Positions 51,234 to 54,797 of a stretch of 64,000 bases of DNA are shown piece by piece (within the stretch, counting starts at the first letter, position 1; every line of letters begins with the position of its first letter). The notes under the pieces were generated by a model that ran no database searches, was not told the DNA's origin, and was given only the letters and a program-made list of their open reading frames with translations. The stretch lies in NCBI RefSeq assembly GCF_008868175.1, contig NZ_WBKT01000010.1, forward strand, positions 1 to 64,000, in the 5' to 3' direction. The DNA comes from Micromonospora sp. AMSO31t (GTDB taxonomy: Bacteria; Actinomycetota; Actinomycetes; Mycobacteriales; Micromonosporaceae). The position numbers and the translations under genes are program-made.

Positions 51234-52223
51234 TCAGCCGGCGGCGACGACCTCGTCGCGGGCGGCGAGCGCCTGCTGGTAGAGCCGCCCGGCCCGATAC
51301 GACGAGCGCACCAGCGGGCCGCTCATCACGCCGGCGAAGCCGATCTCCTCGGCCTCCTCGCGCAGCTCGACGAACTCCTCCGGCTTGACCCAGCGGGTGA
51401 CCGGGTGGTGCCGGGGGGAGGGGCGCAGGTACTGCGTGATGGTGATCAGCTCGCAGCCGGCCTCGTGCAGGTCGCGCAGCGCCTGGGAGACCTCGGCCCG
51501 CTCCTCGCCCATGCCGAGGATCAGGTTGCTCTTGGTGACCAGGCCGTCGGCGCGCGCCTGGCGGATCACGTCGAGGGAGCGCTCGTAGCGGAACGCCGGG
51601 CGGATCCGCTTGAAGATCCGCGGCACGGTCTCCACGTTGTGGGCCAGCACCTCCGGGCGGGAGCCGAACACCTCGGCGAGCTGCTCGGGCACCGCGTTGA
51701 AGTCGGGGATCAGCAGCTCGACGCCGCAGCCGGACTGGAGGGCGTGGATCTGCCGGACCGTCTCGGCGTAGAGCCAGGCGCCGCCGTCGGGCAGGTCGTC
51801 GCGGGCCACGCCCGTGATGGTGGCGTAGCGCAGGCCCATGGCGGCGACGGACTCGGCGACCCGGCGGGGCTCGTCGGCGTCGAACTCGGCCGGCTTGCCG
51901 GTGTCGATCTGGCAGAAGTCGCAGCGCCGGGTGCACTGGTCGCCACCGATGAGGAAGGTGGCCTCCCGGTCCTCCCAGCACTCGTAGATGTTGGGGCAGC
52001 CGGCCTCCTGGCAGACGGTGTGCAGCCCCTCGCGCGAGACGAGCCCGCGCAGCTGGGTGTACTCCGGGCCCATCTTGGCCTTGACCTTGATCCACGGCGG
52101 CTTGCGCTCGATCGGCGTCTCGGCGTTGCGCGCCTCGATCCGCAGCATGCGCCGCCCCTCGGGTGCGACAGTCGCGGTTGGCGCGGCCTGCTCGGTCGTC
52201 GGCGCGGAGGGCTCGATCGTCAC
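51234..52223 (-). CDS. lipA: Lipoyl synthase
   Basis: 329 residues, radical-SAM enzyme inserting two sulfurs into octanoyl groups on E2/GcvH. Both Fe-S clusters are marked: auxiliary CX4CX5C in [12 protein letters not shown], radical-SAM CX3CX2C in CTRRCDFC. The closing [12 protein letters not shown] segment is also present. GTG 52223 was chosen: TACGCT lies 7 nt upstream and no Shine-Dalgarno exists, so it is probably leaderless. A longer frame would add 30 residues of non-conserved sequence. lipB lies 3 kb away on the same strand. Confidence 0.95.
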
Positions 52224-52360
52224 GAAACCGAGCGTACGCCGGTCGGCGGCCGTCGATGAACGTCGGGCGACCGGCGTCACGCCCCGAATGATGTGACACC
52301 GGACACGAGCCACCAGAAATCCCCGTCACACGTGCCGGCGGCGGGTGCTACCGTGCCCGG

Positions 52361-52634
52361 CAGAGCTGCGACGGAGCCGAGTAGCGGGCCGATCCGCCAG
52401 CGCAGAGAGCCGCCGATGTGCTGGAAGGCGGTCTGGCGCCGGCCCACGAAGACCCTCCCGAGCTGCGGGAAGAACGGCGTCCGCGCCCAGTAGACCCCGC
52501 CCGGCTGGCCCCGGTGAAAAGGCGACGAACGAGGCCCCCGCTCCGGCGGGGGCGAAGGTGTGGTGGCACCGCGAGGTTTCCCGCTCGCCCACACCTCCCG
52601 GGGATCGCGTTGCGATTGATCGAGGAGGTAACCG
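52361..52634 (+). promoter_or_regulatory. T-box riboswitch (translational) upstream of aspS
   Basis: The leader has GAGTAG at 52379-52384 and a Stem I apex of T-box type (CAGAGAGCCGCC, GATGTGCTGGAA, GGCGGTCTGG, 52401-52436). The specifier-side strand CACGAAGACCC has GAC at 52451-52453. A GCCCCCG-CGGGGGC hairpin (52533-52553) precedes the T-box sequence AAGGTGTGGTGGCACCGCGA (52555-52574). Downstream, CCACACCTCC (52589-52598) can pair with either AGGTGTGG in the T-box arm or the Shine-Dalgarno GGAGGT (52624-52629), a translational switch as in actinobacterial ileS. The bulge UGGC calls for tRNA ending GCCA, discriminator G73, as in tRNA-Asp and tRNA-Asn. A possible -10, TACCGT, is at 52349-52354. 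Specifier GAC reads Asp. Confidence 0.85.
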
Positions 52635-52636
52635 CC

Positions 52637-53923
52637 GTGCAACGCATCCTGTCCTCCCAGCTCACCCACCATGTCGGCGAGTCCGTTCGGATCGCCGGCT
52701 GGGTGCACCGCCGCCGGCTGCTCAAGTCGGTGGCCTTCCTGATCGTCCGGGACGCCGCCGGCCTGGCCCAGGTGGTGGTCACCGACCCCGCCGCGCGCGC
52801 GGCCGTCGAGTCGCTGCCCGAGGAGACCGTCGTCGAGGTCACCGGCACGGTGGTCGCGAACGCCACGGCGCCCGCCGGGGTCGAGCTGGCCGAGCCGACG
52901 GTACGCCCGCTCGGCCCGCCCGCCGTCCCGCCGCCGTTCGACCTGTACCGGCCGGCGCTCACCGCCACCCTGCCCACCCAGCTCGACCACGCGCCCACCG
53001 CGCTGCGCCACCCGACCCGCTCCGCCGCGCTGCGGATCTCGGCGGCGGCGGTGGCCGGCTTCCGGGCCGCCCTGGACGCCCGCCAGTTCGTGGAGATCCA
53101 CACCCCGAAGGTGGTCGCCTCGTCCACCGAGAGCGGGGCGAACGTGTTCGCGCTGGACTGGTTCGGCCGGCCCGCGTACCTGGCCCAGTCGCCGCAGTTC
53201 TACAAGCAGCTCATGGTCGGCGTCTTCGAGCGGGTCTACGAGGTCGGGCCGGTGTTCCGCGCCGAGCCGCACGACACCGTCCGGCACCTGGCCCAGTACA
53301 CGTCGCTCGACGTCGAGCTGGGCTTCGTGGCCGACCACCGGGACGTGATGGCCGTGCTGCGGGAGACCCTGGCCGGGATGCTGGCCGAGGTCGCGGCCCG
53401 GGCCGGCGGGGCCGTCGCCACCCTCGGGCTCACCCTGCCGGAGGTGCCCGCCGAGATCCCCGCCGTGCACTTCACCGAGGCGCTGAAGATCGCCGGGGCG
53501 CCGGTCGACGAGCCGGACCTCGCCCCGGCGCACGAGCGGGCGCTGGGGGAGTGGGCACTGCGCGAGCACGGCTCGGACTTCCTCTTCGTCACCGGCTATC
53601 CGATGGCGAAGCGGCCGTTCTACACCCACCCGGACCCGGCGCGGCCGGCCCACTCCAACGGCTTCGACCTGCTGTTCCGGGGGTTGGAGCTGGTCACCGG
53701 CGGGCAGCGGCTGCACCGGCACGAGGACTACCTGGCCGCCCTGGCGGCGCGCGGCGAGCCGGTCGAGCCGTACGCCGGGTACGTGGACGCGTTCCGCCAC
53801 GGCATGCCGCCGCACGGGGGCTTCGCCATCGGGCTGGAACGCTTCGTCGCCCGGCTCACCGGCGCGGCCAACGTCCGGGAGGTGACCGCCTTCCCCCGGG
53901 ACCTGCACCGGCTCACCCCCTGA
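52637..53923 (+). CDS. aspS: Archaeal-type aspartyl-tRNA synthetase, probably non-discriminating
   Basis: 428 residues, the short AspRS form of archaea and some actinobacteria, without the bacterial GAD insertion. The OB-fold anticodon domain (SVRIAGWVHRRRLLKSVAFL, about residues 15-105) is followed by the class II core with motif 2 RAEPHDTVRHLAQYTSLDVE and motif 3 GGFAIGLERFVARLTG. His in GWVH, where discriminating enzymes have Trp, and Pro in TAPAGVEL suggest it also charges tRNA-Asn. Asp-tRNA-Asn would then be amidated by GatCAB, which is not in the window. GTG 52637 follows GAGGAGGT by 7 nt. A T-box leader controls it and a perfect palindrome follows. Confidence 0.9.
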   Translation: MQRILSSQLTHHVGESVRIAGWVHRRRLLKSVAFLIVRDAAGLAQVVVTDPAARAAVESLPEETVVEVTGTVVANATAPAGVELAEPTVRPLGPPAVPPPFDLYRPALTATLPTQLDHAPTALRHPTRSAALRISAAAVAGFRAALDARQFVEIHTPKVVASSTESGANVFALDWFGRPAYLAQSPQFYKQLMVGVFERVYEVGPVFRAEPHDTVRHLAQYTSLDVELGFVADHRDVMAVLRETLAGMLAEVAARAGGAVATLGLTLPEVPAEIPAVHFTEALKIAGAPVDEPDLAPAHERALGEWALREHGSDFLFVTGYPMAKRPFYTHPDPARPAHSNGFDLLFRGLELVTGGQRLHRHEDYLAALAARGEPVEPYAGYVDAFRHGMPPHGGFAIGLERFVARLTGAANVREVTAFPRDLHRLTP

Positions 53924-53930
53924 GGAGGAA

Positions 53931-53954
53931 GGGGCCCCGGTCGACCGGGGCCCC
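53931..53954. terminator. Bidirectional hairpin terminator
   Basis: GGGGCCCCGGTC and GACCGGGGCCCC form a perfect 24-bp palindrome between the convergent aspS and nadE genes. Confidence 0.8.
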
Positions 53955-53972: not shown

Positions 53973-54797
53973 TCAGGGTGCGACCGGGAGCTGGCGCTTG
54001 TGGTCGGTGGCCTGGTAGCGGGCCACCAGCGCCGCCTCCACCTCGGCGGGCACCGGCCGGCCCTCCAGGTAGTCGTCGATGTGCTCGTAGGCCAGGCCGA
54101 GCGCGTCCTCGTCGAGCTTGCCCGGGGCGAGGGTCTCCAGGTCGGCTGTGGGCGCCTTGCCGACCAGCTCGGTGGGGGCGCCGAGCGCCGCGGCCAGTGC
54201 CCGCACGCGCCGCTTGGTGAGCCCGGTCAGCGGGATCACGTCGGCCGCCCCGTCGCCGTGCTTGGTGAAGAAGCCGGTGACCGCCTCGGCGGCGTGGTCG
54301 GTGCCGACCACCAGCCCGCCCGCCGCGCCGGCCACCGCGTACTGGGCGATCATGCGCTGCCGGGCCTTGATGTTGCCGAGCACGAAGTCCTGCTGGGCGG
54401 CATCGCGGAAGGTCAGCCCGCCGGCGACAAGCGCGGCCAGGGCGGCGTCGGCGGCCGGCTTGACGTCGACCGTGAGCACCCGGTCGGGGCGGATGAACTC
54501 CAGCGCGGCCTGGGCGTGGTGCTCGTCGGCCTGCACGCCGTAGGGCAGGCGCATGGCGACGAAGACGGCCGGGTGGCCGGCGGAGCGGGCGCGCTCCGCG
54601 GCGAGCTGGCAGAGCCGGCCGGCGGTGGTCGAGTCGACGCCGCCGCTGATGCCCAGGACCAGCGTGGTGAGGCCGGTGTCGACGAGGCGGTCGGCGAGGA
54701 AGACGACCCGGCGCTCGATCTCCTCGGCGGCGTCGAAGGTCGCCGGCACCCGGAGCTCCTCGGCGATCCGTTGCTGGGTCGACATCACGTCGGTCAT
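53973..54797 (-). CDS. nadE: NH3-dependent NAD synthetase
   Basis: 274 residues, the short ammonia-dependent form (no glutaminase domain). It converts nicotinic acid adenine dinucleotide to NAD+ with ATP. The pyrophosphatase P-loop is LGISGGVDST. Also seen are KARQRMIAQYAVAG, the conserved NaAD-site loop GTDHAAEAVTGFFTKHGDG and GLTKRRVRALAAALGAP. ATG 54797 has GAGAGGA upstream; MSTQQ at 54785 is an alternative. It lies 17 nt downstream of the VOC gene in a lipB-VOC-nadE cluster. Confidence 0.95.
   Translation of the reverse strand: MTDVMSTQQRIAEELRVPATFDAAEEIERRVVFLADRLVDTGLTTLVLGISGGVDSTTAGRLCQLAAERARSAGHPAVFVAMRLPYGVQADEHHAQAALEFIRPDRVLTVDVKPAADAALAALVAGGLTFRDAAQQDFVLGNIKARQRMIAQYAVAGAAGGLVVGTDHAAEAVTGFFTKHGDGAADVIPLTGLTKRRVRALAAALGAPTELVGKAPTADLETLAPGKLDEDALGLAYEHIDDYLEGRPVPAEVEAALVARYQATDHKRQLPVAP

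Follow-up and report, generated by a model that had tools for sequence, protein, structure and literature searches.

The leader of aspS2, the gene for an archaeal-type aspartyl-tRNA synthetase (AspRS) in Micromonospora sp. AMSO31t, is very likely a translational T-box riboswitch for tRNA-Asp, judging from its sequence and from those of its relatives. It lies in the window, the 64,000-nt stretch of DNA that was analysed. The T-box mechanism is ordinary, the target and the anatomy are unusual, and what is new is an anatomical variant; no claim is made to the first Asp T-box in Actinomycetes. A T-box had been proposed at this place in the initial annotation, and this identity is borne out by a full-length, though sub-threshold, match to the Rfam T-box model (RF00230) together with covarying Stem I, T-arm, and sequestrator.

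The aspS2 locus and its product

The product of aspS2 scored 534.2 bits against NF003483 (cut-off 353) and 341.8 bits against TIGR00458, below the cut-off of 368.4; its best PDB match was AspRS2 (1n9w; E 2.5e-116), and the NF003483 score and this match uphold the archaeal type first assigned to the downstream gene. Among the nearest 80 of 358 relatives, the most similar enzyme was AspRS2 of Micromonospora sp. MA102 (97% identical). The neighbors, lipA and nadE, are divergent from and convergent with aspS2, respectively (Table 1). The inverted repeat past the aspS2 stop has a TCGA loop and lacks a U run.

Profile searches found in the same genome a bacterial AspRS (848.6 bits; contig C27), so that aspS2 encodes a second AspRS beside the housekeeping enzyme, as well as GatB, whose gene is on a different contig from aspS2. 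AsnRS was not found in this genome, the top asnS match being aspS2 itself (188.8 bits; cut-off 342.6); because GatB is present and AsnRS was not found, Asn-tRNA must come by amidation, from Asp-tRNA-Asn plus GatCAB. AspS2 is probably a non-discriminating AspRS: it resembles AspRS2 of Thermus thermophilus (1n9w), which is likewise archaeal-type and is non-discriminating, and shares with it the His in GWVH (Trp in 3nel) and the Pro in NATAPAG (Lys in 3nel), residues that we take to be significant for discrimination by AspRS. To our knowledge, no T-box is known on the T. thermophilus AspRS2 gene.

Identification and anatomy of the leader

The T-box hallmark motifs first listed for the leader were all found again at or near their original positions (Table 1), and the covariance-model search that had been proposed as a check gave a full-length match to RF00230 (52359-52595; model positions 1-219 of 219; E 2.6e-8 in 401 nt), though its 42.8 bits lie below the gathering cut-off of 93 bits. 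The same match had an E-value of 9.8e-8 in a search of the whole genome. It is because of this cut-off that the scan of the window at the gathering threshold returned no match; 51 of 61 genomes of the family matched RF00230 at E ≤0.5 and none passed the cut-off, so the sub-threshold score of the window is weak as counter-evidence.

Table 1. Features of the aspS2 locus and its leader (positions in the window; a dot marks a feature without strand).
Feature	Positions	Strand	Basis
lipA, divergent neighbor of aspS2	51234-52313	-	
-10-like element TACCGT; putative transcript start ~52361, foot of Stem I	52349-52354	+	comparison of leaders
T-box leader, whole	52360-52639	+	RF00230 match and motifs
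Stem I, long type; K-turn GA 52370-52371 / GA 52460-52461	52360-52463	+	RF00230 alignment, pair changes
GAGTAG	52379-52384	+	sequence
Stem I head: AGAGAG bulge 52404-52409, GCUGGAA loop 52420-52426	52404-52426	+	sequence
AGAGAG	52404-52409	+	sequence
GCTGGAA	52420-52426	+	sequence
GAA directly before specifier	52448-52450	+	sequence
Specifier GAC; next base C52454	52451-52453	+	RF00230 specifier position
Stem II GCGGG/CCCGC; S-turn strands AAGAAC 52470-52475, CAGUAGA 52488-52494	52465-52500	+	sequence, RF00230 alignment
Stem IIA/B region; F-box-like stretch CCCCGGUGA rather than CCGUCA	52501-52527	+	position only
GAACG string; Stem III hairpin 52534-52553; AA 52555-52556	52527-52556	+	hairpin in fold
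Antisequestrator (T-arm): helix A1 52557-52563/52589-52595, bulge UGGCACC 52564-52570, helix A2 52571-52575/52584-52588	52557-52595	+	pairing in relatives
TGGTGGCACCGCGA	52561-52574	+	sequence
CCACACCTCC	52589-52598	+	sequence
Sequestrator: ACCUCC 52593-52598 with GGAGGU 52624-52629; ACC 52593-52595 common to helix A1	52593-52629	+	fold, energy, co-evolution
GAGGAGGT	52622-52629	+	sequence
aspS2, archaeal-type AspRS, 428 aa; GTG start 52637, stop TGA 53921-53923	52637-53923	+	profile matches
10-bp perfect inverted repeat directly past the aspS2 stop, between aspS2 and nadE; possible 3' end	53931-53954	.	sequence
nadE, convergent neighbor of aspS2	53973-54797	-	

A generic promoter scan found no promoter at the leader. 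The sequence TANNNT stands 18-26 nt ahead of the K-turn GA in 119 of 121 parsed long-Stem-I leaders, where base shuffles lead one to expect about 4.8, and the transcript therefore probably begins at Stem I. The head of Stem I would, by analogy, form the double T-loop that binds the tRNA elbow; within its AGAGA, AG is invariant and the remainder nearly so among 41 leaders. Positions 52527-52556 fit the RRRxG-Stem III-AA motif described in an excerpt of PMC7583486, and a loose form of this motif occurs in 105 of 126 long leaders, a count made without a control. Both putative S-turn strands of Stem II are in place, and the F-box-like stretch of the IIA/B region departs from the canonical sequence; known T-boxes may have or lack the S-turn and the IIA/B pseudoknot.

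Folding energies, expressed as z-scores against shuffles, were 0.04 for the leader, -0.04 for Stem I, -0.84 for the sequestrator, and -1.81 for the T-arm; folding energy was dropped as main evidence, most values being no better than those of shuffles, and the case for a T-box thus rests on comparison among relatives.

Covariation of Stem I and the T-arm

A pairing scheme derived manually from the Rfam alignment was scored on 46 hand-picked, diverse leaders; L234 failed parsing, which left 45 for the T-arm alignment, and removal of L083, L181, L212, and L226 for length left 41 for Stem I. Against shuffles that ignore relatedness, Stem I had 93.1% of cells paired (76.0% in shuffles), 178 cells with double changes (62 in shuffles), and a covariation of 0.491 (0.191 in shuffles), and none of 500 shuffles was as high on any of five measures; in 22 of its 26 pairs, at least one sequence has both bases changed. 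Slid controls, which keep relatedness, gave a covariation of only 0.07-0.12 with 39-44% paired. For the T-arm, against shuffles of the same kind, the paired cells amounted to 98.0% (92.0% in shuffles) and the covariation to 0.236 (0.127 in shuffles); 0/500 shuffles were as high on four measures, and 4/500 on the count of pair types. Double changes occur in 6 of the 12 T-arm pairs, and one A1 pair is UA in 23 leaders and CG in 20.

The tRNA probably read

The initial assignment of GAC as the Asp specifier agrees with the specifier position of the RF00230 alignment and with the presence of GAC in all 133 parsed long-Stem-I leaders, a count for which the search pattern demanded GAAGA plus C or T. 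Together with 3 leaders without Stem I and 11 in which it is short or unclear, these make up the 147 leaders with an arm. As expected of a T-box, the specifier, in a covarying Stem I, matches the anticodon of the tRNA served by the regulated synthetase, the gene being that of an AspRS. According to an excerpt on TBDB, GAC accounts for 0.94 of Asp specifiers (PMC7778990).

The UGGC of the bulge (52564-52567), in an arm that covaries, is compatible with the G73 of the genome's own tRNA-Asp; its own tRNA-Ile has A73. This much of the initial reading of the bulge stands, and its stricter part, a fixed tie between UGGC and G73, does not: the bulge reads UGGC in 135 of the 147 aspS2 arms and UGGU in the other 12, as it does in 14/14 ileS arms, and because UGGU can wobble with G73, the rule that UGGC means G73 is weakened. 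Furthermore, G73 is found in both tRNA-Asp and tRNA-Asn (in eight relatives, tRNA-Asn has G73 and U1-A72), so that the bulge fits both and the specifier alone excludes tRNA-Asn. A tRNA-Asn gene was not found in the 377-contig assembly of this genome, though relatives have one; this is most likely an assembly gap.

That the leader senses tRNA-Asn, or tRNA-Asp and tRNA-Asn together, is very improbable. Such sensing would suit an AspRS that looks non-discriminating in a genome where no AsnRS was found and Asn-tRNA needs Asp-tRNA-Asn plus GatCAB, the G73 of tRNA-Asn in the eight relatives is compatible with it, and a T-box of Clostridium acetobutylicum with two codons, Asn/Asp, is said to have been described by Saad in 2012 and 2013. 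Against it, AAC stands at the specifier in none of the 133 parsed long leaders, GAC is maintained across changes of Stem I architecture, and gatB sits on another contig. An Asn specifier was rejected, GAC alone rather than AAC plus GAC being found at the site.

Probable control of translation

If the leader is a T-box for tRNA-Asp, Stem I would hold the tRNA, with GAC pairing to the anticodon GUC and the head contacting the elbow, and Stem II would brace the codon-anticodon helix. The 3' G73-CCA of uncharged tRNA-Asp would pair with the UGGC bulge and hold the T-arm; CCACACC would then be consumed in helix A1, leaving the SD free, and AspS2 would be made. With charged tRNA-Asp the arm would not be held, ACCUCC would pair with GGAGGU, and translation would be low. 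Since the genome has a housekeeping AspRS as well, the switch would make AspS2 an on-demand copy for periods of empty tRNA-Asp; we guess that the natural trigger might be aspartate shortage or a poisoned first AspRS.

Translational control had been proposed at the outset, and it is favored by the alternative pairing of T-arm and SD, by a sequestrator that appears to co-evolve, and by the lack of a recognizable terminator, the combination that defines class II T-boxes. Taken alone, the T-arm (52552-52598; -19.9 kcal/mol) and the sequestrator (52585-52640; -20.8 kcal/mol) have nearly equal energies. In the fold of the whole leader without tRNA, a check suggested earlier, the ACCUCC-GGAGGU sequestrator is formed and the SD hidden, in a fold with an energy z of 0.04. 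For the test of the sequestrator, 104 of 136 leaders were parsed, and 49 remained after Micromonospora had been thinned. Beyond the core, the SD and its partner form 3.06 outer pairs (2.24 by permutation) and 1.10 inner pairs (0.40 by permutation) in these 49 leaders, and 0/2000 permutations, which ignore relatedness, were as high. The best SD-helix score across 127 leaders was 16.2 for native, 14.7 for swapped, and 12.7 for shuffled sequences; no SD helix was found by this scoring in L073 and L119. Matched changes on the two sides occur in L222 (AUCUCC/GGAGAU), L134 (CACCUCCGA/UCGGAGGUG), L125 (ACCUCCUC/GAGGAGGU), and L183 (ACCUCCAG/CUGGAGGU). There is one outer pair only in 9/49 leaders (L085, L086, L174, L175, L209, L212, L213, L216, and L225, of which L225 has four inner pairs in addition).

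In Firmicutes, T-boxes generally act on transcription, and a Rho-dependent end would leave no trace in sequence scans; nevertheless, a transcriptional T-box, whether it uses a terminator or Rho, is very improbable here, since the SD pairing co-evolves with its partner, a run of five T between arm and gene is absent in 136/136 leaders, and no terminator-like site was found in 52200-52760. A terminator was rejected on the latter two counts.

It is also scarcely credible that the element has decayed and no longer controls aspS2 in this genome. Loss does happen, Micromonospora L018 being without the element and L044, L071, and L081 without Stem I, but the window has every element save a canonical F-box and a purine past the specifier, and the T-arm is present in 80 of 81 rows of the first set (the window and its 80 nearest loci). 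The translational T-box of the window is very probably intact and functional, as far as its sequence allows one to judge.

Distribution of the element and possible purpose

Collected loci bear L numbers, and counts are of rows rather than genomes; two pairs of rows are identical (L083/L133 and L127/L185), and 80 of the 162 rows represent the closest members of a set of 358 relatives. The 162 rows hold 147 arms: 142 in the 147 collected aspS2 genes at least 60% identical to that of the window, and 5 in the 15 below 60% identity. The genes at or above 60% identity without an arm are L018, L201, L228, L229, and L230 (the last near a contig end). The family-wide search yielded 30 fetched T-box loci, 16 before aspS2 and 14 before ileS, the latter assigned by TIGR00392 in 13/14 (N-terminal parts) and, for L144, as IleRS by eye. 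The initial description of an Asp T-box as unusual thus holds against the published picture, in which an excerpt of PMC1262725 describes actinobacterial T-boxes on ileS with an SD-sequestering hairpin, and does not hold against the genomes, given the 16 of 30 loci on aspS2 and the 142 of 147 arms.

Across the class, an archaeal-type AspRS was found in 36 of 394 genomes, and in further family surveys in 23/80, 21/81, and 2/8 genomes. The class-level count covers 30 of the 36 loci, six loci of family f43 having been left out: 21 have an arm, 8 do not, and one (L201) is not judgeable. A bacterial AspRS is also present in 21/21 of these genomes with an arm and in 0/8 without one, the latter all belonging to family f43 and thus representing few events. 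In the family surveys, L214, L215, L228, and L229 have no arm although the genome has a bacterial AspRS.

With regard to purpose, it is conceivable, though rather doubtful, that induced AspS2 serves mainly for resistance to the natural AspRS poisons that soil actinomycetes make (e.g., nucleoside sulfamates), and not as a reserve for aspartate hunger; either purpose is compatible with the T-box mechanism. The analogies come from excerpts reporting that second synthetases protect the producers of albomycin, mupirocin, and indolmycin (PMC9437257) and that dealanylascamycin, a Streptomyces product, hijacks Plasmodium synthetases, AspRS included (PMC12262901). T-boxes also sit on second copies, in that, among the 29 judged class-level genomes, a bacterial AspRS accompanies every one of the 21 T-box-bearing aspS2 genes and is found in none of the 8 genomes without a T-box. 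Weighing against resistance, the reported hijacking concerns Plasmodium synthetases and not bacterial AspRS, the 8 T-box-less genomes are all of one family, and at L214, L215, L228, and L229 the archaeal-type AspRS has no T-box even though the genome also encodes a bacterial AspRS. The locus would amount to a spare AspRS that is probably controlled by tRNA-Asp and that may be connected with natural poisons of AspRS.

In family f43 (L192, L194-L200), the archaeal-type AspRS has no T-box in the 8 loci read, and a bacterial AspRS was missing at E 1e-60 in 14 f43 genomes.

Relation to known T-boxes

In Clostridium acetobutylicum, a T-box reportedly described by Saad in the same two accounts precedes genes of tRNA-dependent amidation, in an operon with gatCAB. 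It is tied, like the leader in the window, to an extra AspRS in a GatCAB-using bacterium; it is reported to differ in belonging to a gatCAB operon, in its two Asn/Asp codons, and in its Firmicute host, whereas the element in the window serves a single gene, has GAC only, is apparently translational, and occurs in Actinomycetes.

The actinobacterial ileS T-boxes, including that of the same genome, share with the aspS2 leader a T-arm, a UGGN bulge, an SD sequestrator in place of a terminator, and a Stem II with AGUAGA. They differ in that Stem I is ultrashort in 11/14, its apical loop holding AUC (in 3/14, L118, L122, and L145, it is long), and that all have UGGU and A after AUC, whereas the aspS2 leader of the window has a long Stem I, GAC, UGGC, and C after the specifier. 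The genome's own ileS T-box (L157; G000:C159:6710-6769) has the ultrashort Stem I CCGG-CCAUCA-CCGG and UGGU, and scores 18.3 bits with RF00230. The long-Stem-I T-boxes of L118, L122, and L145 (GAAGAUCA or similar) precede ileS genes that form a second sequence type within the family.

In excerpt, a 2008 survey of 19 actinobacterial genomes counts 32 T-boxes, spread over 12 of them, and mentions one T-box-regulated aspS of three in C. acetobutylicum (PMC2494555), a later paper lists extra AspRSs in Actinomycetales (2014; PMC4206432), and a few translational T-boxes are said to have a long Stem I (PMC7583486). In titles and the opening lines of abstracts, no Asp T-box in Actinomycetes was recognized, and excerpts of PMC10651847 and PMC12452182 contributed nothing on Asp; TBDB, which applied a class II model of its own to actinobacterial reference genomes (excerpt of PMC7778990), may therefore already list some aspS2 leaders. 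Actinobacterial T-boxes are not confined to ileS, and the Rfam cut-off hides them.

Variation among aspS2 leaders

On balance, we lean toward the view that the aspS2 leaders are one T-box lineage that has been rebuilt lawfully: a canonical S-turn would relax the need for a purine after the specifier and allow C, loss or decay of Stem II would go with a purine, Stem I would have shrunk several times to a hairpin with GAC in its apical loop, convergent with ileS, and one group would have swapped its synthetase under a conserved leader. If so, with tRNA and gene unchanged, an Asp T-box can be built either like a Gly T-box or like an Ile T-box. Structural T-box work rests on few models, glyQS, tyrS, and ileS (excerpt of PMC7583486), each with its own tRNA, so that parts are hard to compare with the tRNA fixed. 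The aspS2 leaders combine one tRNA and one gene with a Stem I that is long or apparently ultrashort, a Stem II present or absent, and C or a purine after the specifier, and would let the contributions of Stem II, the elbow clamp, and the stacking base be tested directly.

The C after the specifier in the window, and its tracking of Stem II within aspS2 leaders, had been overlooked initially. A purine at this place, found in only part of the aspS2 leaders, is described in excerpt as conserved, its stacking mattering much in glyQS (no Stem II) and little in ileS (Stem II), and the ribosome has C at the matching place, rC1400 (PMC7583486). The distance from Stem I to the arm in long leaders falls into groups of 36-52, 69-83, and ≥89 nt, since some of these leaders lack Stem II and IIA/B or have reduced forms of them. 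Among 126 long-Stem-I aspS2 rows, with the C/purine question and the limit for a full Stem II (85 nt) fixed after the leaders had been seen, C follows the specifier in 69/69 with an AGUA S-turn, in 14 of 19 with RAUG (the other 5 have a purine), and in 7/7 with other S-turn forms; where Stem II is absent or reduced, A follows in 31/31. The rows with a full Stem II and a purine are thus 5 of 95, all RAUG (A in L207, L208, and L212; G in L209 and L213). A protein tree, built by a quick method and with SH-aLRT support only, covers 136 of the 147 arm-bearing rows, after removal of near-duplicates, short proteins, and 4 rows without a type; it requires at least 6 changes of Stem II, 9 of the base, and 5 of Stem I type. 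Of 5 independent pairs on the tree, an average of 4.7 have the base in step with Stem II and 0 have it opposed (p 0.0625, the minimum that 5 pairs can give).

A rule that Stem II gives C was rejected, since it fails on the 5/95 rows above and on ileS, where A follows AUC in 14/14 leaders despite AGUAGA, including the three with a long Stem I; the S-turn thus permits C and does not demand it. Within the aspS2 lineage the association of base and Stem II appears strong, its direction was foretold by structures, and Stem II would be permissive rather than decisive. The Actinoplanes-type aspS2 leaders (36-52 nt from Stem I to arm) resemble glyQS T-boxes in having a long Stem I without Stem II, and differ in serving Asp rather than Gly. 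The lack of Stem II in glyQS has been explained by the all-G/C glycine codon (excerpt of PMC7583486), whereas these leaders lack it with GAC.

In several lineages, Stem I seems to have shrunk from that of a long Asp T-box to an apical GAC hairpin. L178, sister to the long leader L176 (SH-aLRT 99), keeps the K-turn and GGAG/CUCC with only a CAGACA loop between; L183, L187, L188, and L189 have GAGG, GAGG, GGAG, and GGGG hairpins around UGACA; and L184, L078, L080, and L084 have GUGACG loops. These ultrashort aspS2 leaders look like the ultrashort ileS form. Such a short hairpin arises in 13-23% of shuffles, so each alone could be chance; the best cases are L178 and the group of L183, L187, L188, and L189, and the hairpins of L186 and L237 are unconvincing as Stem I.

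In a comparison of 29 chosen leaders, those of L123, L190, L216, L217, and L218 are 79% identical to 15 leaders of family f23 (81% within f23), whereas their AspRSs are only 41% identical to those of f23 (75% within f23); the simplest reading of these sequences is that the coding sequence was replaced under a kept leader.

Among Micromonospora, the loss of the T-box in L018 and of Stem I in L044, L071, and L081 lies beside a palindromic repeat (TTAAC..GGTAGAG..GGGCCCC). In leaders where Stem I is retained, e.g., L011 and L065, a similar repeat lies downstream of Stem I and ahead of the 3' strand of Stem II.
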